Of a stretch of 36,326 nucleotides of DNA, positions 23,061 through 33,966 are shown one piece after another; the first letter of the stretch is position 1, and each line of letters starts with the position of its first letter. A model generated the notes under the pieces. It was not told the origin of the DNA, searched no databases, and was given only the letters and a program-made list of their open reading frames with translations. The stretch spans positions 1 through 36,326 of IMG/VR virus record IMGVR_UViG_3300032088_001784; one strand, 5' to 3'. This DNA comes from a virus. The position numbers were made by a program, and so were the translations under genes.

Positions 23061-24218
23061 ATGGAAAATCTTTTCGAAGGAAAAAATTGGGACACTACTC
23101 GTGAAACACTTCTAGACGGTTTAGAAGGTAACAAGCGTGACGTAATGTCATCAGTTTTAGAAAACACAAAATCAGCACTTACAGAAAGTGCTACAGCAGG
23201 TGCATCACAGGCTGGTAACGTTGCTACTTTAAACAAAGTAATTTTACCAATCATTAGACGTGTAATGCCTACTGTTATTGCAAACGAAATTATTGGTGTT
23301 CAACCAATGACTGGTCCAGTAGGACAAATTCATACACTACGTGTGAGATACGCTGAAACTGTAGGTTCAACTACAGCAGGTTCAGAAGCATTATCACCTT
23401 TTGATATTGCTACATCATATTCTGGCGATGGTACAAACGCTCCGGCGGCTACTTCATCAATGGAAGGCGATGCTGGTAACAAAATGTCAATTCAAGTTCT
23501 TAAGCAAACAGTTGAAGCGAAAACTCGTAAACTATCTGCACGTTGGACTTTTGAAGCGGCACAAGATGCTAACTCAATGCACGGCTTAGATGTTGAAGCA
23601 GAAATCATGGCAGCACTTGCTATGGAAATCACTGCTGAAATCGACCAAGAAGTTCTAGGTTCACTAGGCGCTCTTGCTACAGGCACAGCATCATATGATA
23701 TGAACGGTTCATTTACTGGTACTCCAACTTTCGTTGGTGACAGACATGCCGTACTTGCAACAATGATGAACAGAGAAGCAAACCTAATTGCACAACGTAC
23801 TCGTAGAGGCGCGGCAAACTGGGCAGTAGTTTCTCCAGCGGCATTGACTGTACTACAGTCTGCTACTACATCAGCATTTGCTCGTACTACTGAAGGTACT
23901 TTCGAAGCACCTACAAACACTAAGTTTGTTGGTACTCTAAACGGTACTATGCGTATCTATGTAAATACATATGCTTCAGACACAACAGATGTTCTTTTAG
24001 GCTATAAAGGTCAAGGCGAAATTGACGCGGCTGCGTTCTATTGCCCATACGTACCATTAATGTCTTCAGGCGTTGTGGTTGACCCAGGCACTTTTGAGCC
24101 AGTAGTTTCATTCATGACTCGTTATGGTTATGTTGAACTAAACAACACTGCATCATCACTTGGTAATGCGGCGGACTACGTTTCAAAAATTGCTATGGCA
24201 AACCTTTCATTCGTGTAA
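23061..24218 (+). CDS. 23: Major capsid protein gp23
   Basis: A 385-residue HK97-fold capsid protein with T4-family landmarks: 'LNKVILPIIRRVMPTVIANEIIGVQPMTGPVGQIHTLRVRY', 'RKLSARWTFEAAQD', 'EIMAALAMEITAEIDQEVL' and 'ILGYKGQGEIDAAAFYCPYVPL' type segments near the end. T4 gp23 is 521 aa, so the insertion domain is lacking and this is a compact version. A maturation site is plausible at 'ALTE-S' (after Glu42), matching the gp21 rule, just before the first conserved stretch. GGAGAG precedes the ATG. An intrinsic terminator follows directly. Confidence 0.95.
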   Translation: MENLFEGKNWDTTRETLLDGLEGNKRDVMSSVLENTKSALTESATAGASQAGNVATLNKVILPIIRRVMPTVIANEIIGVQPMTGPVGQIHTLRVRYAETVGSTTAGSEALSPFDIATSYSGDGTNAPAATSSMEGDAGNKMSIQVLKQTVEAKTRKLSARWTFEAAQDANSMHGLDVEAEIMAALAMEITAEIDQEVLGSLGALATGTASYDMNGSFTGTPTFVGDRHAVLATMMNREANLIAQRTRRGAANWAVVSPAALTVLQSATTSAFARTTEGTFEAPTNTKFVGTLNGTMRIYVNTYASDTTDVLLGYKGQGEIDAAAFYCPYVPLMSSGVVVDPGTFEPVVSFMTRYGYVELNNTASSLGNAADYVSKIAMANLSFV

Positions 24219-24337: not shown

Positions 24338-26437
24338 ATGGCAGAACAAATCAAATTTGGTGACAGACTATTTCTCAAAGGTGAGAAATTAGTATTAGAT
24401 AATGGTGCAAGTGCAGGTACAATCATGTCTGAGAACGGAACAGTTCAGATTGAAGGTGCCACAATAATTACAGGAGACTTAACAGTTCAAGGAACAACAA
24501 CTACTGTTAATTCTGCTACATTAACTATTGATGATAAGAACATTGAACTTGGTGCAATAGGTTCTCCCACAGATACTACAGCAGATGGCGGCGGTATTAC
24601 TCTTAAGGGTACTACTGATAAAACAATTTTATGGACTGACTCAACAGATAGTTGGGACTTTAATCAAAAAGTTAAATCTACAAATGGTTTTGAAGGTGCT
24701 TTAACTGGCAACGTAACTGGCAACACTACTGGAATGCATTTCGGTGGATTAGATACACTAGGTGCAGATATTATTGCTACTGGACTATCTGATTTTACAG
24801 ATGTTCGAATCTGGCTTGGTACAATGAATGATACCATTATCGGCAACTTGACTCCAAATTCTGGCACATTTACTACTATAACTGGTGATGGAACAGCGAT
24901 TACTAATGTTCTTACAAATTATACAACTACTAATTTAACCGAAGGCACAAACAAATACTTTACTGATGAAAGAGTTGATGACCGAATTGATTCGTTGTTT
25001 ACAAACGCATACGGAATAACGGGAACTTATAATGATGCAGGAAATGAATTCACTCTAGCATTTGACCCAATCAATGCAGGCTCAGCCATTGCAGTATTAG
25101 ATACAACAGATACAACTCAAGCAAAATTTAGAACTATCCGCGAAGGTAAAATAGCATCAGGTGGACATGGAGACCTAACAGTTGCTTTATCTGGAGACGA
25201 AATTGTAATCGATACAAGTTCTCCTATAAATGAATTGACATATCATACCTTTACAGGAAACGGTTCAACTAGTACGTATACATTACCATATACAATAGGA
25301 CAAAATTATCAAATACTAGTTTATATTGATGGAGTCGTTAAACATCCAACAACAGATTATTTAATGTCTTCAACAACCCTATCATTAACATCACCGTTGG
25401 GTAATGGTGCTGTAATGAGTGTTTTAAAATTAGGTACAACATTTACAGCAACATCATTAACCGATGCAAATACATTGGGTGGAAATCTTCCAGCACATTT
25501 CTTAGCATGGGCAAACTTTACAGGAAAGCCAACTACAATTGCAGGTTATGGTATCACCGATGCAATGACTTCATCAGCAGTTACAACAGCAATTTCGAAT
25601 GCAGTTGCAACTAAAGACAATACTGACGAAATTACAGAAGGCTCAACAAATTTATATTATACAGATGCTCGTTCAAGAGCGGCAATATCTGTAGCAGGCG
25701 ACTTAACTTATAATTCATCTACTGGTGTTATATCAACCCAAGGACTTGCTTCTTCTACTACAGATGATTTAGCAGAAGGTTCAACAAATTTATATTACAC
25801 AGATGCAAGAGCAGATGTAAGGGCACAATTGAAAATTGATGCTTTAGTAGATTCTGCACCTGGTTCATTAGATACATTAAATGAATTAGCCGCGGCATTA
25901 GGAGATGATGCCAACTTTAGTACAACAATAACAAATCAAATAGCGGCAATGAATCCTACGGGAACTATAATTCCATCACTAGATAATACATATGATTTAG
26001 GAAGTACTACTAAAAAATATGCAAACATATATGGACATTCAGTTCATGCACATTATGCCGACTTAGCAGAACGATATGCAACTGATGTTCCTTATTTAAA
26101 AGGAACAGTTGTAGTATTTGGTGGCGAGGCAGAGATAACAACAACGACAGAAGCAAGAGATGTTTCAGTTGCAGGAGTTATATCTACAAATCCAGCGATT
26201 AAACTAAATGCTGATGCTGGTAATTCACAAACACACCCTTACGTTGCACTAAGAGGAAGAGTTCCATGTAATTTTATTGGACCAGTATCTAAAGGTGACC
26301 TAATCGTAACAGCAGACAATGAGCCGGGCTTTGCTCAAAGTGTAGGCAAAGAGAACGCAGGTCGTTCAGTGTTTGCCAAATCAATAGAAACAGACTTAAC
26401 AGAAGGTAAAAAACTGATTGAAGTAGTTATTTTATAA
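24338..26437 (+). CDS. Tail fibre-like structural protein 1
   Basis: A 699-residue, Thr/Gly/Asn-rich, beta-repetitive protein. The N-terminal 160 residues contain short beta repeats ('GDLTVQGTTTTVNSATLTIDDKNIELG') common in fibres of marine T4-like phages. Modules 'EGTNKYFTDERVDDRIDSL', 'EGSTNLYYTDARSRAAIS' and 'EGSTNLYYTDARADVRAQ' recur in the middle. The last 130 residues ('YADLAERYATDVPYLKGTVVVFGGEAEIT...THPYVALRGRVPCNFIGPVSKGDLIV') form a compact domain shared with the next gene. No intramolecular chaperone is evident. It probably makes a trimeric host-binding fibre or decoration, made late in infection. Confidence 0.85.
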   Translation: MAEQIKFGDRLFLKGEKLVLDNGASAGTIMSENGTVQIEGATIITGDLTVQGTTTTVNSATLTIDDKNIELGAIGSPTDTTADGGGITLKGTTDKTILWTDSTDSWDFNQKVKSTNGFEGALTGNVTGNTTGMHFGGLDTLGADIIATGLSDFTDVRIWLGTMNDTIIGNLTPNSGTFTTITGDGTAITNVLTNYTTTNLTEGTNKYFTDERVDDRIDSLFTNAYGITGTYNDAGNEFTLAFDPINAGSAIAVLDTTDTTQAKFRTIREGKIASGGHGDLTVALSGDEIVIDTSSPINELTYHTFTGNGSTSTYTLPYTIGQNYQILVYIDGVVKHPTTDYLMSSTTLSLTSPLGNGAVMSVLKLGTTFTATSLTDANTLGGNLPAHFLAWANFTGKPTTIAGYGITDAMTSSAVTTAISNAVATKDNTDEITEGSTNLYYTDARSRAAISVAGDLTYNSSTGVISTQGLASSTTDDLAEGSTNLYYTDARADVRAQLKIDALVDSAPGSLDTLNELAAALGDDANFSTTITNQIAAMNPTGTIIPSLDNTYDLGSTTKKYANIYGHSVHAHYADLAERYATDVPYLKGTVVVFGGEAEITTTTEARDVSVAGVISTNPAIKLNADAGNSQTHPYVALRGRVPCNFIGPVSKGDLIVTADNEPGFAQSVGKENAGRSVFAKSIETDLTEGKKLIEVVIL
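25775..25806 (+). repeat. 32-nt exact repeat shared by the two fibre genes
   Basis: A 32-nt stretch coding for 'EGSTNLYYTDA' recurs identically at 27898-27929 in the second fibre gene, in the same frame. A diverged copy is at about 25636-25667. Such identity could allow recombination between the fibres. Confidence 0.85.
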
Positions 26438-26490
26438 TTAACTCAGTTCTTAATAAAATTAACTGTAAGTATTGCTTTTCGACACATTTA

Positions 26491-26499
26491 TATAAATAG
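26491..26499 (+). promoter_or_regulatory. Late promoter motif for tail fibre 2
   Basis: TATAAATAG, 241 nt before the start. The expected transcript begins at about 26503, right at a strong hairpin. Confidence 0.7.
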
Positions 26500-26503
26500 T
26501 ATT

Positions 26504-26665
26504 GTAACAGGAATCCTGTTACGACAGTGTGACAGGAAGATAAAGGGTCCTGTTGGCTGAATCCCAAGTAGATTTCTACTAGGCTAACCTTTAATATTAG
26601 CCGAAAGGGGGAGTGTGGTTGCTGAGTAACCTGTAACCGTTGTGAAGTTGATTTTTCTGGAATCG
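26504..26665 (+). ncRNA. Structured leader RNA of tail fibre 2
   Basis: The gap 26438-26739 has no gene. From the expected late transcription start it folds into GTAACAGG/CCTGTTAC (26504-26522), a second ACAGG/CCTGT stem (26532-26553), AGTAG/CTACT (about 26567-26580), GGCTAA/TTAGCC (26582-26587 with 26597-26602) and GGTTG/TAACC (about 26617-26631). The loop CCTTT at 26588-26592 can pair with AAAGG at 26604-26608, making an H-type pseudoknot. No riboswitch family was recognised. A clean AGGAG site lies further on before the ATG at 26740, outside these stems. Confidence 0.55.
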
Positions 26666-26739
26666 GAAAGAACAATAATACTCACTAACAGTCTTATAAT
26701 TTTACAATAGAACAAAATTAAACTCAGGAGAAAACGAAA

Positions 26740-29229
26740 ATGGCAGCATATGCAATTCAATTCCGACGTGGTACAACTACTGAACATAATTCATTCACTG
26801 GCTTAGCAGGTGAGGTAACAGTAGATACAACTAAAAATACAGTTGTCGTCCACAACGGTTCAACAGCGGGTGGATACGCCCTGGCACTAGAAGGTGCCGC
26901 AGTATCAACATCAACAGGTGCGTTCTCAAGTAACGTAACAGTTGGTGGAACATTAGCAGTAACATCTACAACAACTATGGGTGGAAACCTAACAATGACG
27001 GGTCATATTTTGCCAAGTGCAAATATTACTTATGATTTAGGTTCAGCAACAAAGATGTGGAAAGATGTTTACATTGGTCCTGGTTCATTATACATTAACG
27101 GTAAGAAAGTTATTGAAGATGACTCTGGCTCAATCAATATTACAACAGATAACAACGAAGACCTTAAATTAACTACTGCTGGTACTGGTACGTTAAAATT
27201 CATTTCAGGTAATGGTATTAACTTTACTGGTGAATTAGGCGCAGTATCTGGTGATTTACAAATCGGTGACCACATCGATATGAATTCATCATTAATTAAA
27301 GAACTAGCAACTCCGGTTTCTAGTACTGATGCGGCAAACAAAGCATACGTAGATACTACGTCAGGCACGGCTGTAACTGGTGGCTCAAACGCAGGTTCTT
27401 TTACAACAGTAACTACTTCAGGTAACGCTACTATTGGTGGTAACTTAACAGTTAATGGTACAACTACATCAATTAACACAAACGTACTAGATATTGGTGA
27501 CAATATTATTGAACTTAACTCTGACGAAACTGGCGCTCCTTCACAGAATGCTGGTATTGACGTTCAGCGTGGTACTTCTTTAAGTAAGCAATTACTATGG
27601 GACGAATCAGTTGATAAATGGACAGTTGGTGCAGAAACATTTATAGCGGCAACATTCGAAGGTGACTTAACTGGTGATGTAACTGGTGGTGTAACTGGTG
27701 ATGTAGTTGGTAATGTAACAGGTAACGTAACAGGTAACACTTCAGGTTCTGCTGGTACTGTAACAAGCATCGCGGACCATCTTAAAGATGAAGACAACAT
27801 GGCTTCAGACAGTGCAACACACGTTCCTACACAGCAATCAGTTAAGGCTTATGTAGATTCATCAGTAGCAGGTAAAGACAACTCTGACGAAATTACTGAA
27901 GGTTCAACAAATTTATATTACACAGATGCTAGAAGCCGTGCGGCAATTAGTGTTTCTGGTGATATTTCTTATAACTCATCAACTGGTGTTATTTCAACAA
28001 CAGGTCTAGCAAGTTCAGATACTGGTGATTTAGCAGAAGGTTCAAACCTATACTTTACTAATGAAAGAGTAGATGATAGAGTTGGCACATTAATCGTCGG
28101 CGGTACAAATGTTACTGCAACTTATGACGATGCGGCTGGTACACTAACGCTTGTTTCAGCGGATACTACGTATTCTATACAAGACGGCGAGTTATCAAAA
28201 AACAACTTTACTGATGCAGACCATTCTAAACTAGATGCCATTGAAGCGGCGGCTACAGCAGACCAAACTGATGCAGAAATCAGAGCGGCAGTTGAAGCGG
28301 CAACAGACTCAAATGTATTCACTGATGCAGACCATAGCAAATTAGACGCTATTGAGGCTACAGCAGATGTTACAGATGCTACTAACGTAGCGGCGGCTGG
28401 TGCAGTTATGGAATCTGATGCAACAACGGCAGCAATGTCATTTGTTGTAGATGAAGATAACATGGCTTCAGATAGTGCTACTAAAGTTCCAACTCAACAA
28501 TCAGTTAAGGCTTACACAGACGCACGTGAAACTGCAATTACAACTGCATATCAATCATATGCAGATACGGCAGAAGCAGATGCGAAAACTTATGCAGATA
28601 CAGAAATTGCGGCATTAGTTGACAGTTCTCCAGCGGCTATGAATACGTTGAATGAACTAGCGGCAGCATTAGGTGATGACGCATCATTTAGTACTACGGT
28701 TACTAACTCTATTGCTACTAAACTAGCACTAGCAGGTGGTACTATGTCAGGTGACATCGCAATGGGTGGTAATGATATCACTGGTGGCGGTGACGCAACA
28801 TTTACTAACTTCAACGGTACGGCGACATATGCAAAATATGCCGACCTTGCTGAAAGATATGCGGCTGACGCAACATATGAAGAAGGTACAGTTGTATCAT
28901 TTGGCGGTGAAGCAGAAGTTACTTCAGCACAAGGTTATGGTTCAACTAAGATTGCAGGTGTAGTTTCTACTAAGCCAGCATTCGCAATGAACTCAGAAGC
29001 AGGTTCATCAGAAACTCATCCATATATTGCTCTACAAGGACGTGTTCCATGTAAAGTAACTGGTACAGTTTCTAAAGGTGACATTCTTGTAGCATCAGAA
29101 ATTTCAGGTGTTGCAACAGTATGGCTTGAAAATTCAGTAGACCCACGTATGACAGCATATGTTGGTATTGCTATTGAAGACAAGACTACTGATGGCGAAG
29201 GCTATGTTGAAGTTAAAGTAGGTAAGTAA
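26740..29229 (+). CDS. Tail fibre-like structural protein 2
   Basis: An 829-residue fibre. The N-terminus 'AYAIQFRRGTTTEHNSFTGLAGEVTVDTTKNTVVVHNGSTAGGYAL' is the common marine phage fibre module for virion attachment. Repeats follow: 'GNVTGNVTGN', 'EDNMASDSATHVPTQQSVKAY' twice, 'FTDADHSKLDAIEA' twice, and 'EGSTNLYYTDAR'. The C-terminal domain 'YADLAERYAADATYEEGTVVSFGGEAEVT...THPYIALQGRVPCKVTGTVSKGDILV' is paralogous to that of fibre 1. The gene is likely a duplication product of its neighbour with a different N-terminus. An AGGAG site precedes the start; a bidirectional terminator follows. Confidence 0.87.
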   Translation: MAAYAIQFRRGTTTEHNSFTGLAGEVTVDTTKNTVVVHNGSTAGGYALALEGAAVSTSTGAFSSNVTVGGTLAVTSTTTMGGNLTMTGHILPSANITYDLGSATKMWKDVYIGPGSLYINGKKVIEDDSGSINITTDNNEDLKLTTAGTGTLKFISGNGINFTGELGAVSGDLQIGDHIDMNSSLIKELATPVSSTDAANKAYVDTTSGTAVTGGSNAGSFTTVTTSGNATIGGNLTVNGTTTSINTNVLDIGDNIIELNSDETGAPSQNAGIDVQRGTSLSKQLLWDESVDKWTVGAETFIAATFEGDLTGDVTGGVTGDVVGNVTGNVTGNTSGSAGTVTSIADHLKDEDNMASDSATHVPTQQSVKAYVDSSVAGKDNSDEITEGSTNLYYTDARSRAAISVSGDISYNSSTGVISTTGLASSDTGDLAEGSNLYFTNERVDDRVGTLIVGGTNVTATYDDAAGTLTLVSADTTYSIQDGELSKNNFTDADHSKLDAIEAAATADQTDAEIRAAVEAATDSNVFTDADHSKLDAIEATADVTDATNVAAAGAVMESDATTAAMSFVVDEDNMASDSATKVPTQQSVKAYTDARETAITTAYQSYADTAEADAKTYADTEIAALVDSSPAAMNTLNELAAALGDDASFSTTVTNSIATKLALAGGTMSGDIAMGGNDITGGGDATFTNFNGTATYAKYADLAERYAADATYEEGTVVSFGGEAEVTSAQGYGSTKIAGVVSTKPAFAMNSEAGSSETHPYIALQGRVPCKVTGTVSKGDILVASEISGVATVWLENSVDPRMTAYVGIAIEDKTTDGEGYVEVKVGK

Positions 29230-29261
29230 TTTACTGACTTTGTACTAAGATTTAAAATGAA

Positions 29262-29290
29262 AAAGGGAACCTTTAGGGTTCCCTTTTTTT
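29262..29290 (+). terminator. Bidirectional intrinsic terminator
   Basis: GGGAACC (29265-29271) with GGTTCCC (29277-29283), flanked by an A-run and a T-run, so it can end both the fibre transcript and the leftward small RNA. Confidence 0.9.
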
Positions 29291-29510
29291 ATATAAAGTA
29301 AAATAGGTAGGACTTGGTTACACCTACAAGTACGGACCGAAATACCATTTCTAAACCGTACAACCTATCCCCGAAAGTGACTTCGATGTGACACCTTCCG
29401 TTCTCCGGATAATGCCTGGGTACCACCCCTGGACAGTCAAGTTCGACTCTTTTGGTAGGAGCCTCTTCCTTGCACTATTAACAAAAGTTAATTAGACTTT
29501 TGCTACTTAT
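29291..29510 (-). ncRNA. Candidate structured small RNA of about 220-245 nt
   Basis: A gap without ORFs lies between the bidirectional terminator and a strong minus-strand promoter, so a leftward transcript is expected. Stems are CAAAAGT/ACTTTTG near the 5' end (29482-29488 with 29496-29502), GGGT/ACCC with a 3-nt loop (about 29418-29428), and a 3' three-way junction: ATAGGT/ACCTAT (29303-29308 with 29363-29368) enclosing GTACGG/CCGTAC (29330-29335 with 29356-29361, with inner GAAAT/ATTTC) and ACTTG/CAAGT (29312-29316 with 29327-29331). No known family was recognised; it does not fit tRNA, tmRNA, 6S or RNase P by eye. Confidence 0.6.
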
Positions 29511-29516
29511 AATACT

Positions 29517-29545
29517 AATATAGCACAAGTGATTCGTCTTGTCAA
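29517..29545 (-). promoter_or_regulatory. Sigma70-like promoter for the small RNA at 29.3-29.5 kb
   Basis: On the minus strand TTGACA (29545-29540) and TATATT (29522-29517), spacer 17 bp. No ORF lies between it and the terminator. Confidence 0.75.
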
Positions 29546-29568
29546 CCACTTTTTTTAATTATTTTTAA

Positions 29569-30270
29569 TTATTTGAAGATTTTTTTGATAGTTGTACAGA
29601 AGTTGTTGGAACCCTTGGGGTCCACGGGCAATGAGTTCTCGTTAATCCACTCAGGAAACTTTTCAAACAGTGTTTTCCACTGAATCATCTCATTATATAA
29701 GTCTACTATCTTCTTTAGATGTTCACTAGTATTAGGATAATTGTGTTCTCTTTTTAGTTTGTTAACTCTCAGTTTACATTCACTTAAGTCTGATAAATCT
29801 CGGTCAACGGCTTCAATTATCTTTTCAAAAGATTTGATATCTCTGAATTTGTTAATTAGGAACTGGTGATGTTTGTTCTTTGGTTTACCATCATATAGAA
29901 ACATAATCTCTTGTAAATCGTAATACAACGCTTTTACGGGATTGATACTTTCTCTGTACCTTTTCATTATTTCTTCGATAGCAAATGCTGAACTTTCAGT
30001 AGATAAGTTTTCAAGTACACTTATAGCCAGTATGTTAATACGTTGGCTACTTGCTGATAATGCCTTCTTTGATTCTTCTTTAACTTTCGCAATAACAATG
30101 TCAACAAGACGAGCCTCTGTATTATCTAAATCTCTTTTTAGATACTCTACATGGCCAGGGCTTGAATGAACGATTGTTCTTCTTAGGCTATCCGTAACTC
30201 TTTCACCTTTAAGAACTTGTTTACAGTCACGGATGAATCGTTGTCTTTCTAAATTTATAATATGATTCAC
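29569..30270 (-). CDS. Unknown helical protein, last gene of the gp14 unit
   Basis: A 233-residue protein that I do not recognise. It is predominantly helical and charged, without signal peptide, membrane segments or Cys clusters. 'RRTIVHSSPGHVEYLKRDLDNTEARLVDIVIAKV' and the pair 'DLSECKLRVNKLKREH' and 'HLKKIVDLYNEMIQWKTLFEKFPEWI' look like packed helices. The start is GTG at 30270 with a strong GAGGAGA site 7 nt before it; no ATG fits as well. It follows the NUDIX gene after 56 nt. A CTAAATATT element on the minus strand near 30305-30313 could be a weak late promoter. Confidence 0.7.
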   Translation of the reverse strand: MNHIINLERQRFIRDCKQVLKGERVTDSLRRTIVHSSPGHVEYLKRDLDNTEARLVDIVIAKVKEESKKALSASSQRINILAISVLENLSTESSAFAIEEIMKRYRESINPVKALYYDLQEIMFLYDGKPKNKHHQFLINKFRDIKSFEKIIEAVDRDLSDLSECKLRVNKLKREHNYPNTSEHLKKIVDLYNEMIQWKTLFEKFPEWINENSLPVDPKGSNNFCTTIKKIFK

Positions 30271-30326
30271 TATGTCTCCTCAAAACTTCTCATCTTACAG
30301 TAATATTTAGGAGTAAAAGGAGTGGC

Positions 30327-30764
30327 TCAAAGTGACGATATAATGTCTTTAATGATTTTTAATTTTTTCTTTCGAAATAGTGTACGTCTTGTGCCGGGAT
30401 GTAGTGGCTTTGGTATATAGTTTGTTTCTACCCATGCATAACCACCTGATTCGTGATTCATTTTTGGTATGAATTCTTTGTTGACTAATATAACAAAAGA
30501 GTAGTAACTGAATTCTCCAGTTCTTGCATGATATTGGTCTAATGGATATATTTTGATAACATCGTCTTCAACACTTAATGATATTTCTTCAGTCAGTTCA
30601 CGTAAAAGTGCTTGTGCGATATTTTCATCTTCTTCAACTTTACCACCAAAGAATCCCCAATTTCTTGGAAATGAACCATCAATTGTTCTTTGTTGAAGAA
30701 GTATTCTATGTGTGTCTTTTGCGACTATACAACCACCTGCCGCTCTAATTCTTGATTCTTTCAT
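30327..30764 (-). CDS. NUDIX hydrolase
   Basis: A 145-residue NUDIX protein. The box at residues 41-63 reads G-x5-E-x7-RE-L-T-EE-I-S-L ('GKVEEDENIAQALLRELTEE'), with the usual Gly near the end replaced by Ser62; the metal-binding Glu residues are present. 'AAGGCIVAKDTHRILLQQR' and 'WGFFGGKVE' are canonical strands. It should hydrolyse a nucleoside diphosphate derivative such as an oxidised or noncanonical NTP, ADP-ribose or a dinucleotide. The substrate cannot be told from the sequence. Its ATG overlaps the gp15 stop by one base (TAATG), so it is translated with tail genes. Confidence 0.93.
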   Translation of the reverse strand: MKESRIRAAGGCIVAKDTHRILLQQRTIDGSFPRNWGFFGGKVEEDENIAQALLRELTEEISLSVEDDVIKIYPLDQYHARTGEFSYYSFVILVNKEFIPKMNHESGGYAWVETNYIPKPLHPGTRRTLFRKKKLKIIKDIISSL

Positions 30765-32143
30765 TATGGGGTCACTACTAGTTCCATTCTCCAGTATCCA
30801 CCATCATATATTCCTTGATAAGTGTCCGTCCATTCTCCCTTTTCAAACTTGAATTGTTGAGAAGAAAAAGTATTTGTTACATACTCACGTGTTGCGTTAG
30901 CACTTGCATCAAAACTTTTTACCCATGCTGTTCCATTGTATTCTAAGATGTCACCAGTCGCAATTTCAATTCCCCAAACACTAGTGGCTTTAGCAGAATC
31001 TAAAGTTAGGTATCTTTGTCCTGATGCTACTGCGGGAATACCATTAAATCCTGGTTTTGCTGTAGAGGCATTAATAATTCTATCTACAGAAGTTACTGTG
31101 TTTGTTGGTAGAGTAGCAGGGTCTATTGTAAACTGTAATGCATTATCTACACCAGTAACAGTTGATAATGTACCGATAACATCGGCATTAAGGTCTTCTA
31201 CTTCTCCATGATATTTTAATCGAAGCCTTGATACTCCGCTATCTAATGTACCATATTCTTTTAATACTTTTGACCAAGGAATATTATCATTATAGTTTCC
31301 ATTTGCATATGGACTACACCATACATCACTACCATTTTCATAAACTCGTAAAGCATAGTTTCCTGGAGTTACAATGACACTTGATTGTGCCTGTAAGTCT
31401 GCGAAGAATTCAAATGCATCTGGGTCGTAATCAATTGTATCTAAATCTGAATACGTGTAAATGTTATTAATAACATTTCTAATTACGTTTTGTCTTGTTA
31501 CCTGTGCTGGTGGATTAATCCAAATAGGAATTTGAAATATCATTGTTGCGATATCAATTTGGTCTTCAACACCTGCTGGTATTCCTCTGCTTGTCCACTG
31601 TAAGTCAGTCATTTCTACTACTGTAATAGTAGTCCAGTCTACAGGATTATCGTTGTGTTGTATTTCTAATGCTGGATTGAATAATACTAGCATTTGCTCA
31701 AGCAATTGAAGTTTTTGGTCTGTATTAGAAGTCCAAACATCAACTTGCATGTTCAATAAGTAAGGAACTGGCATTAATCGTTTTACACTATATTTGTTAC
31801 CTGGTTCACTAGTATACGCATTTGTAGTAGAATCAAATTTTCTTTCATTGACACTTACCGCATCATTAAAAAATGGTTCTTGTAATCTTTGTCTATCTGG
31901 TTGTAAACTTTGAACATGAGCCGCAATAAATGGCGCAGAGTTAACTACATTCTCAGAGTTTCCTTTGAGAATAGTTGCCGCCATACGAGATACATCTCCA
32001 TATCTTGCTGGAACTCTGATGTAATAGTCAGTTGTCCCATCATCCATTTTGCTTCCAGTTTTAACTGTGAATCCACTAAACATTCTAATAAATTGTAGAA
32101 TGTATCTTCGAATCTGATTGTCATAGAAATGTTGTTGTGCCAT
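30764..32143 (-). CDS. 15: Tail terminator/sheath stabiliser gp15-like, with C-terminal extension
   Basis: A 459-residue protein. The first 240 residues carry the gp15 pattern: 'FYDNQIRRYILQFIRMFSGF', 'VPARYGDVSRMAATIL', 'RLMPVPYLLNMQVDVWTSNTDQKLQLLEQMLVLFNP' and 'IFQIPIWINPPAQV'. gp15 caps the finished tail and stabilises the sheath for joining to the neck. T4 gp15 has 272 residues; here a C-terminal half of about 200 residues is added, including a beta-rich section ('TKPGFNGIPAVASGQRYLTLDSAKATSVWGIEI', 'LEYNGTAWVKSFDA'). The gene starts 2 nt after the gp14 stop. Confidence 0.82.
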   Translation of the reverse strand: MAQQHFYDNQIRRYILQFIRMFSGFTVKTGSKMDDGTTDYYIRVPARYGDVSRMAATILKGNSENVVNSAPFIAAHVQSLQPDRQRLQEPFFNDAVSVNERKFDSTTNAYTSEPGNKYSVKRLMPVPYLLNMQVDVWTSNTDQKLQLLEQMLVLFNPALEIQHNDNPVDWTTITVVEMTDLQWTSRGIPAGVEDQIDIATMIFQIPIWINPPAQVTRQNVIRNVINNIYTYSDLDTIDYDPDAFEFFADLQAQSSVIVTPGNYALRVYENGSDVWCSPYANGNYNDNIPWSKVLKEYGTLDSGVSRLRLKYHGEVEDLNADVIGTLSTVTGVDNALQFTIDPATLPTNTVTSVDRIINASTAKPGFNGIPAVASGQRYLTLDSAKATSVWGIEIATGDILEYNGTAWVKSFDASANATREYVTNTFSSQQFKFEKGEWTDTYQGIYDGGYWRMELVVTP

Positions 32144-32144
32144 A

Positions 32145-33152
32145 TTAGTCTACCTTTGGTCTCACTGCTTTTGACAGATTGACTTTTGATGTAATAGTAG
32201 TACCATCATCTAGTTTTACTGTTCCTGCATTATTAATAAATTGATGATGTAATGCGTGTCCAACTTCCCATGCTCCATCATCGTCATTGATTCTGTACCA
32301 CTTATTATCTCTATATTGAAATAACCTTGATGGTTTGTAATCTGTTCTTAAGAAATATGAATCACTAGACGGAGAATCTGGAAATTTCTTTCCAGAGGCG
32401 ACTGTTGCGTAGTCTACATCATCTGGATGATTGGCTTGAGTTGCATACTGTAAGTTATTTGTTCTATAATCCCAGTATTTTCCAGGAACATTGTCTTTTG
32501 CTTCTTGTACGACAGCATCAGTGATTTGTAATTCTTTATTATAAGTTGACAAAATATTCTTCAAGTCTGCGGCATCTTCACCAGTACCAAGAATATCTTT
32601 GTACTCTTGTGTATCTTGTAATTGTTTACAACGAACTCGCCAAACATGTGGCCACCAACCAGCGTCAAATCCTTCAGCACTCTTTGTTGCTTCTTGTACT
32701 ACCCAATATTGATTAACAGCATCAGGTTCAACACCATCGTTGCCTTCTAACATCATGTCTTCACGCATATGAGGAAGTTCGATTACATCACCAGTCATTA
32801 GTTTACGACCTAGTAAATTGACCATTTCGTTTAAATGGAGAGTAAACACTTGTTGGTCATTGCCTAGAAACATTCCGAATTGTGATAATTCGAAATCTTG
32901 GTCAGATACAGTATATACGCCTCGTAAGTCGTATAAATCTTTATCATACTTTCTATCTCTGTTCTCTAAAAAGAGTAAATCTTGTATTGCAGGCGATGCC
33001 GGGTCATAGTCCGCGGCAGTTTTATCTTGTGAGCCAATATACTTATGGACCAAAAGAGATGTCCCGCCATGGTCAAAGTGTGCTTTCACTTGTTTGTCGA
33101 TAAATTTATAATCGTTACCCTTTTTCGAATTCCATAGGCTAAGTCTTGCCAT
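32145..33152 (-). CDS. 14: Neck protein gp14-like
   Basis: A 335-residue protein beginning the leftward unit gp14-gp15-NUDIX-unknown. 'LSQFGMFLGNDQQVFTLHLNEMVNLLGRKLMTGDVIELPHMRED' and 'QYWVVQEATKSAEGFDAGWWPHVWRVRCKQLQDTQEYK' follow the gp14 pattern (a FGL-type segment, then 'P..GDLIYFP', then the 'W.I.C..L.DS.E' end of the core). The C-terminal 130 residues are extra relative to T4 gp14 (256 aa). With gp13 it makes the neck that seals the filled head. A late motif lies 33 nt upstream. gp13 is found 2 kb away on the other strand, unlike the 13-14-15 order in T4. Confidence 0.72.
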   Translation of the reverse strand: MARLSLWNSKKGNDYKFIDKQVKAHFDHGGTSLLVHKYIGSQDKTAADYDPASPAIQDLLFLENRDRKYDKDLYDLRGVYTVSDQDFELSQFGMFLGNDQQVFTLHLNEMVNLLGRKLMTGDVIELPHMREDMMLEGNDGVEPDAVNQYWVVQEATKSAEGFDAGWWPHVWRVRCKQLQDTQEYKDILGTGEDAADLKNILSTYNKELQITDAVVQEAKDNVPGKYWDYRTNNLQYATQANHPDDVDYATVASGKKFPDSPSSDSYFLRTDYKPSRLFQYRDNKWYRINDDDGAWEVGHALHHQFINNAGTVKLDDGTTITSKVNLSKAVRPKVD

Positions 33153-33184
33153 AATAAATGTTCTCCATAATTTGACTTCTATGT

Positions 33185-33193
33185 GTATTTATC
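33185..33193 (-). promoter_or_regulatory. Late promoter motif for the gp14-gp15 unit
   Basis: GATAAATAC on the minus strand, 33 nt upstream of gp14, divergent from the plus-strand motif at 33222-33230. Confidence 0.75.
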
Positions 33194-33221
33194 ATATAAT
33201 AGTGTAATATAATTTTTAATT

Positions 33222-33230
33222 TATAAATAA
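33222..33230 (+). promoter_or_regulatory. Late promoter motif for the oxygenase gene
   Basis: TATAAATAA, 23 nt before the start at 33253. Confidence 0.65.
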
Positions 33231-33252
33231 CCTTTTAGGAAGGTATGAAATA

Positions 33253-33966
33253 ATGAACAATTCAGATTACATCTCAATAAAAGAACTTCTTTCTCCGTTT
33301 GCAGTAAGACAGTTTAAACTCTGGGCGATGAACCCAGACAATATACACCGTGGAAACGCTGTGGATGGGGAATATCACGCAAAACATCGTAAAGGTAGAG
33401 AATATAACGTCTGTTGGTCAAAAGAGCCACCACGAGAGATGTGGCAGCCTATAATAGATGTTTTGAGTAGACATATAGATGCGATGTTTCAAGGTAAGAA
33501 ATGGGACATTCATATAGTTGATACAATTACAACAAGACCAGGAAGTACAAAGATTAGGGCTCATGTTGATACGCCTTATAGATTTGAAAAATATGCTCGT
33601 ACACTAAATGAAGAAGTATTCGGAGTACAATGTATCATTCCATTAGATAAGTTCACACTTCAGAATGGTGCGACTTGTATTTTGCCTGGTTCATATAGGG
33701 ATAAGTTTTATTATAAAGATATAGAAGACAATCAACAAGAATATAATAATCTATTAACGACAAAAGGTTTTCAGTTTGTTTCAAATCCTGGTGATGCGTT
33801 AATGTATAATTCGAGAACATTACATAGTACGATGCCGAATAACAGTAATGAATTTAGGAGTGCGTTATTAATAAATGCACTTGATGTAGAGATAATAGAT
33901 TACATTAGAGAAGTAGATATGAATACTAAAACAGCAAGATTTGATAATAAAACGCACAAAACTTGA
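33253..33966 (+). CDS. 2-oxoglutarate/Fe(II) oxygenase-like protein (PhyH type)
   Basis: A 237-residue double-stranded beta-helix oxygenase. The iron ligands are visible as His104-x-Asp106 in 'IRAHVDTPY' and His191 in 'SRTLHSTMPN', with Arg202 in 'EFRSALLI' placed to bind 2-oxoglutarate. 'GVQCIIPLDKFTLQNGATCILPGSYRDKF' and 'VSNPGDALMYNSRTLH' are the typical strands between them. Such genes are frequent in marine T4-like phages. Substrates are usually unknown and could be a small metabolite, protein or nucleobase. AGGAAGG precedes the ATG. It has its own late-type promoter, between neck genes on both sides. Confidence 0.88.
   Translation: MNNSDYISIKELLSPFAVRQFKLWAMNPDNIHRGNAVDGEYHAKHRKGREYNVCWSKEPPREMWQPIIDVLSRHIDAMFQGKKWDIHIVDTITTRPGSTKIRAHVDTPYRFEKYARTLNEEVFGVQCIIPLDKFTLQNGATCILPGSYRDKFYYKDIEDNQQEYNNLLTTKGFQFVSNPGDALMYNSRTLHSTMPNNSNEFRSALLINALDVEIIDYIREVDMNTKTARFDNKTHKT

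Follow-up and report, generated by a model that had tools for sequence, protein, structure and literature searches.

Organisation of the locus

The window, meaning the whole analysed stretch of viral DNA (36,326 nucleotides; IMG/VR record IMGVR_UViG_3300032088_001784), carries on its minus strand, from 29545 to 29260, a promoter followed by a 206-nt structured RNA and a terminator. No gene lies downstream of this RNA on its own strand, and a tail-fibre gene converges on it from the other side. The features are, in plus-strand order:

26740 to 29229, plus strand: convergent tail-fibre gene, 829 aa
29260 to 29288, minus strand: intrinsic bidirectional terminator, 12-bp stem with T-rich tails on both strands
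29297 to 29502, minus strand: divergent manA-family RNA, 206 nt, core of the predicted transcript (RF01745 and model R1)
Near 29510, minus strand: transcription start, predicted from the promoter
29517 to 29545, minus strand: sigma-70-type promoter, TTGACA-17-TATATT, 11 of 12 consensus matches, extended -10 (TG before the -10)

The consensus promoter, the strong bidirectional terminator and the ORF-free stretch described in an earlier sequence-only reading were all recovered, with the terminator also serving as the end of the tail-fibre gene, and with no credible ORF inside the RNA region on either strand, the longest being 45 aa with a GTG start. The neck unit named there as a neighbour was not borne out: what lies upstream on the strand of the RNA is an ORF of 233 aa without annotation, together with a Nudix hydrolase and a tail-sheath-type protein. 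No tRNA or tmRNA gene is present in the window. The promoter is joint best among 32 promoter-like sites in 26000-33500, a class that is not enriched as such (32 versus 26.7 in shuffles), so the case for it rests on conservation in relatives.

The 233-aa ORF (29569-30270, minus strand), situated just upstream of the RNA promoter, has no PHROGs or Pfam match and is kept at the same place in the related locus L078.

Assignment to the manA family

At gathering cut-offs, Rfam returned no match for the window RNA, while a permissive search aligned it with manA (RF01745) over model positions 1-192 of 192 at 55.1 bits (E=1.5e-13), against a gathering cut-off of 55.2 bits. The Rfam search proposed in the sequence-only reading thereby overturned its statement that the RNA matches no family, yielding a full-length, divergent match 0.1 bit under the cut-off; L078, a near relative, scores 57.5 bits, above it. 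Other low-threshold Rfam matches here (sraA, ohsC, MIR9486 and others) were rejected as terminator look-alikes at chance level.

Megablast against phages and blastn of a canonical manA copy against plasmids gave no match, and a strict canonical manA pattern matched one contig in a scan of genome contigs. A DNA pattern based on the 3' hairpin of manA located relatives in viral contigs. Of 82 records searched with RF01745, 41 matched, in two score classes, canonical at 140-180 bits and divergent at 44-74 bits, the latter holding the window RNA and most of the first relatives. A subfamily model, R1, built from an alignment of 18 divergent sequences that includes the window sequence, scores the window RNA at 225 bits, finds about 150 marine-virus relatives (two pattern-derived sets), and recovers canonical manA RNAs, absent from its building set, at E=1e-9 to 6e-19.

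The window RNA and RF01745 share a full-length alignment of all helices, the core bases AGUG, GGUGGU, AGGU and UUGUNGGU...UCCNACC, and occurrence in T4-like marine phages, the window carrying gp21/gp23-type genes, a portal and a T4-type late sigma factor, a T4-like context as for manA. Positions behind gp23 and ahead of gp32 recur in canonical members as well as in the divergent subfamily. The window RNA differs in its marginal score and in architecture, being a promoter-RNA-terminator unit without a downstream gene instead of a 5' leader. Judged from these comparisons, the window RNA is almost certainly a manA homologue belonging to a divergent subfamily, whose members occur in marine viral contigs and in Pelagibacter phage Mosig, the only isolate found with a divergent-type RNA. 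The manA family, its fold and its presence in T4-like cyanophages were already known; as far as the open-licence literature searched shows, the divergent subfamily, placed narrowly under the cut-off, is new.

Secondary structure and covariation

The helices of the window RNA, all on the minus strand, are listed below from its 5' end.

29482 to 29502, minus strand: P0, 5' hairpin CAAAAGT/ACTTTTG, present and covarying
29475 to 29479, minus strand: P1 5' arm AATAG, closes the multi-branch core, pairs and covaries with 29302-29306
29438 to 29472, minus strand: P2 arm, CAAG/CTTG plus GGCTC/GAGTC, covariation
29431 to 29436, minus strand: P3 5' arm CTGTCC, covaries with 29365-29370
29418 to 29429, minus strand: P4 hairpin GGGGTGGTACCC, loop GGT (29422-29424) forming one pseudoknot side
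29390 to 29416, minus strand: P5 hairpin, two stacked helices, covariation and fold
29371 to 29386, minus strand: P6 hairpin, ACT (29376-29378) pairing with the P4 loop
29365 to 29370, minus strand: P3 3' arm GGATAG
29330 to 29361, minus strand: P7 hairpin, two helices, conserved GGTAT, covariation
29307 to 29327, minus strand: P8 hairpin, highly conserved 11-nt loop (TGTAACCAAGT), covariation
29302 to 29306, minus strand: P1 3' arm CTATT, covariation

Covariation supports 11 helices and a loop-loop pseudoknot. Across 81 distinct sequences in an alignment fitted to the model, standard pairs fill 90.7% of paired cells and two-sided changes occur at 55 of 61 pairs, supplying the covariation in related phages that the sequence-only reading had suggested looking for. 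The covariation score was 0.584, compared with 0.169 ± 0.005 in shuffled alignments and at most 0.131 with partners slid, and a MAFFT alignment, A1, leads to the same result. Folded by itself, the 206-nt sequence has a free-energy optimum with the comparative helices in place except for the P6 loop, and its folding energy is not exceptional (z about -1.0).

The previously proposed 5' hairpin is thus upheld as P0. Of the three-way junction placed near the 3' end, both inner stems are real, as P7 and P8, while the closing helix ATAGGT/ACCTAT is not conserved and was rejected because GGATAG, whose bases had been put into it, pairs with CTGTCC in P3 with strong covariation, CTAT belonging to the P1 3' arm.

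Loop-loop complementarity between P4 and P6 is found in 90 of 92 sequences, in 19 of these only via a G-U pair, the GGU of the P4 loop pairing with a P6-loop ACC or ACU. Compensatory changes comprise UGU/ACA in all five UGU sequences and GAU/AUC in one, and the 85 GGU sequences include none in which ACA or AUC fits as the partner. The P4-P6 pseudoknot, which carries a question mark for manA in Weinberg et al. 2010 (PMC2864571), is supported by these sequence changes; its covariation is likewise new within the open-licence literature.

Promoter and terminator conservation

The 148 copies collapse to 93 loci, which as related loci are not fully independent, so the promoter and terminator counts that follow overstate independent events. 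A promoter matching at least 9 of 12 consensus positions stands at a fixed position in 64 of 83 non-redundant divergent loci (8.9 expected in shuffles), with a spacing from the -10 to the RNA most often of 13-14 nt, and at the same fixed place in 8 of the 10 canonical ones (0.5 expected). In 47 of 88 loci, against 0.6 expected, a terminator begins no more than 25 nt from where the RNA ends. Terminator stems have many unrelated sequences between loci while their position is kept, indicating that the termination function, rather than the sequence, is conserved. One RNA copy per contig was found in 15 of 15 contigs checked.

This architecture, conserved in many relatives and new as far as the open-licence literature shows, supports the proposal, made from the sequence, of a discrete RNA gene that has a promoter and a terminator of its own, and the window RNA very probably forms its own transcription unit. 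Two other accounts bear on the same features. The unit might mainly serve the convergent tail-fibre gene, its terminator ending the fibre message and its read-through being antisense to the fibre 3' end; the bidirectional terminator is indeed common to both convergent units, but the RNA core has no overlap with the fibre gene, and both RNA structure and promoter are kept at loci with a different neighbour, making this account very improbable. Equally improbable is that recombination brought in a copy that is a passenger or in decay and has no function in the window phage. The RNA does change genomic site between related phages, as such a copy might, but the window copy has an intact promoter, fold, pseudoknot and terminator, and across the subfamily strong purifying and compensatory selection acts on the fold.

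Association with tmRNA and tRNA genes

A tRNA or tmRNA gene lies on the same strand within 100 nt of the RNA in 10 of 93 loci, compared with 0.55 expected at random places in the same contigs. In four loci, annotated with Rfam, the RNA follows a permuted, alphaproteobacterial-type tmRNA:

L028, 2879 to 3387: tmRNA 11 nt before the manA-family RNA
L175, 7164 to 7677: tmRNA 12 nt before the manA-family RNA
L213, 5104 to 5733: tmRNA 14 nt before the manA-family RNA
L171, 3125 to 3815: tmRNA, tRNA-Gly and manA-family RNA in tandem, with 9-nt gaps

In L059, a tRNA-Tyr lies 9 nt after a canonical manA (Rfam). About half of the copies without their own promoter sit behind a tmRNA, as do nearly all copies without any promoter-like sequence, which is as expected from a shared transcript. 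By their arrangement, these tandems are apparent stable-RNA operons in marine phages, new in the open-licence literature as far as it shows.

GOLLD and ROOL are linked to phage tRNA genes. They resemble the manA subfamily in being structured, non-coding, phage-borne, near tRNA genes and without an assigned function; they differ in being unrelated in sequence and several times larger, with no oligomer evidence for manA. Such large structured phage non-coding RNAs are treated in a cryo-EM paper (PMC12286853). Methylophage Melnitz carries a tmRNA with a glnA/glutamine riboswitch-like RNA (PMC9004378), sharing with L028, L175, L213 and L171 a structured regulatory-type RNA 3' of a marine-phage tmRNA; the Melnitz tmRNA is permuted, its RNA is of another family (glnA), and the window copy differs further in being monocistronic. 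The manA motif has also been described near tRNAs and a tmRNA on a Bifidobacterium megaplasmid (PMC10832533).

Gene neighbourhoods and the riboswitch alternative

Neighbouring genes in the contigs of relatives were taken from a crude longest-ORF caller, leaving small ORFs and some orientations uncertain. The commonest site of the RNA is after the major capsid gene gp23, including in cyanophages with canonical copies; other sites are before gp32 (also in P-HM2), rubrerythrin or peroxiredoxin. In several clades the RNA lies just before a gene without a terminator, at 17-26 nt for rubrerythrin and peroxiredoxin and 29-100 nt for gp32. In L003 and L099, RNA and terminator are followed by a cytidylyltransferase gene with a mannose-6-phosphate isomerase C-terminal domain. 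A convergent downstream gene, as in the window, also occurs in L078, L214 and L202, no terminator being detected in the last. Genomic contexts interleave on the RNA tree.

These neighbourhoods bear on the established view of the family, Weinberg et al. 2010 (PMC2864571) having judged manA to be cis-regulatory and probably a riboswitch, and Rfam filing RF01745 as Cis-reg. As a manA riboswitch, the element would combine an aptamer with a terminator or ribosome-binding site, giving ligand control of the downstream gene, and the window copy would be orphaned or relocated. The RNAs directly before genes in some relatives, together with the L003/L099 gene and its mannose-6-phosphate isomerase domain behind the terminator, are in keeping with this. 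Against it, the gene beyond the window terminator is convergent, leaving the RNA outside a 5' UTR position, and the window RNA is accordingly filed as a structural homologue rather than a cis-regulator. Similar RNAs precede unrelated genes, and some lie 9-14 nt after a tmRNA or before a tRNA. Terminator stems vary freely whereas the P1 3' arm changes little, so that no conserved terminator/antiterminator overlap was seen by inspection. Inspection likewise found no alternative structures coupling the aptamer to a terminator or ribosome-binding site, the best fold being the comparative structure except for the P6 loop. A riboswitch is considered unlikely for the window RNA.

A probable autonomous RNA gene

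The preferred reading, to which we assign a probability of about 0.65, is that the window element is an autonomous non-coding RNA gene of the divergent manA subfamily, acting in trans and possibly linked to translation. A leader switch needs a gene behind it, of which there is none here, and the RNA takes its place among stable RNAs in tmRNA and tRNA operons, pointing to an independent RNA gene. Homology, structure, the conserved promoter, the terminator and their position are read from the DNA itself; from these we infer transcription and its timing. Host-type sigma-70 RNA polymerase would start near 29510 and produce a transcript of about 240-250 nt ending at the shared terminator, with no downstream gene controlled. 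P1 would close the branched core formed by P2, by P3 carrying P4-P6 with their loop-loop pseudoknot, and by P7 and P8. The folded product would probably act in trans as a stable structured RNA.

The role favoured for it, tentatively, is support of translation during infection, because relatives carry the same RNA in tandem with tmRNA or tRNA genes, although only about a tenth of loci adjoin such genes. Autonomy is in turn opposed by the gene-proximal copies without a terminator in several clades, as expected of a leader; those clades, in which a gene follows the RNA at 17-100 nt, are compatible with cis control, and a dual-use element is possible.

For the family as a whole, a more speculative and somewhat unlikely extension is that manA, instead of being a riboswitch, is a widespread structured phage RNA that acts in trans and is grouped with tmRNA and tRNA genes, aiding or redirecting translation or ribosome rescue while marine bacteria are infected. 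It would sometimes be co-transcribed with tmRNA and sometimes be a free-standing gene as in the window. Listed since 2010 as a probable riboswitch, manA has no ligand named in the open-licence literature found. A large marine-phage subfamily mostly with its own promoter, often with its own terminator, sometimes without a target gene and, in some phages, joined to tmRNA or tRNA suggests that the cis-regulatory label is wrong or incomplete. This would explain the difficulty of seeking a ligand from neighbouring genes, and would shift attention to the stable RNA, its partner proteins and the ribosome. With copies in Pelagibacter phage Mosig and several cyanophages, manA RNA is open to test in culture.

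Further observations on gene content

The window gp23 major capsid protein (23061-24218) is closest to those of jumbo/far-T4 phages, not cyanophages, at 68% for Vibrio 2.275.O, 68% for PA5oct and 65% for Salicola SCTP-2. In L091, the RNA (1445-1649) is followed 68 nt downstream by an ORF for a TonB-dependent outer-membrane receptor of 578 aa, with plug and barrel matches in Pfam; such a receptor gene behind the RNA, in the phage structural region, is also seen in L080 and L121. L069 has upstream genes as in L099 and downstream genes as in L090, suggestive of recombination at or near the RNA gene. A class II (D/K/N) aminoacyl-tRNA-synthetase-like gene is convergent with the RNA in L202 (308-aa ORF) and L206, the latter also carrying, downstream of the RNA, a tRNA-Asn that is encoded on the other strand.
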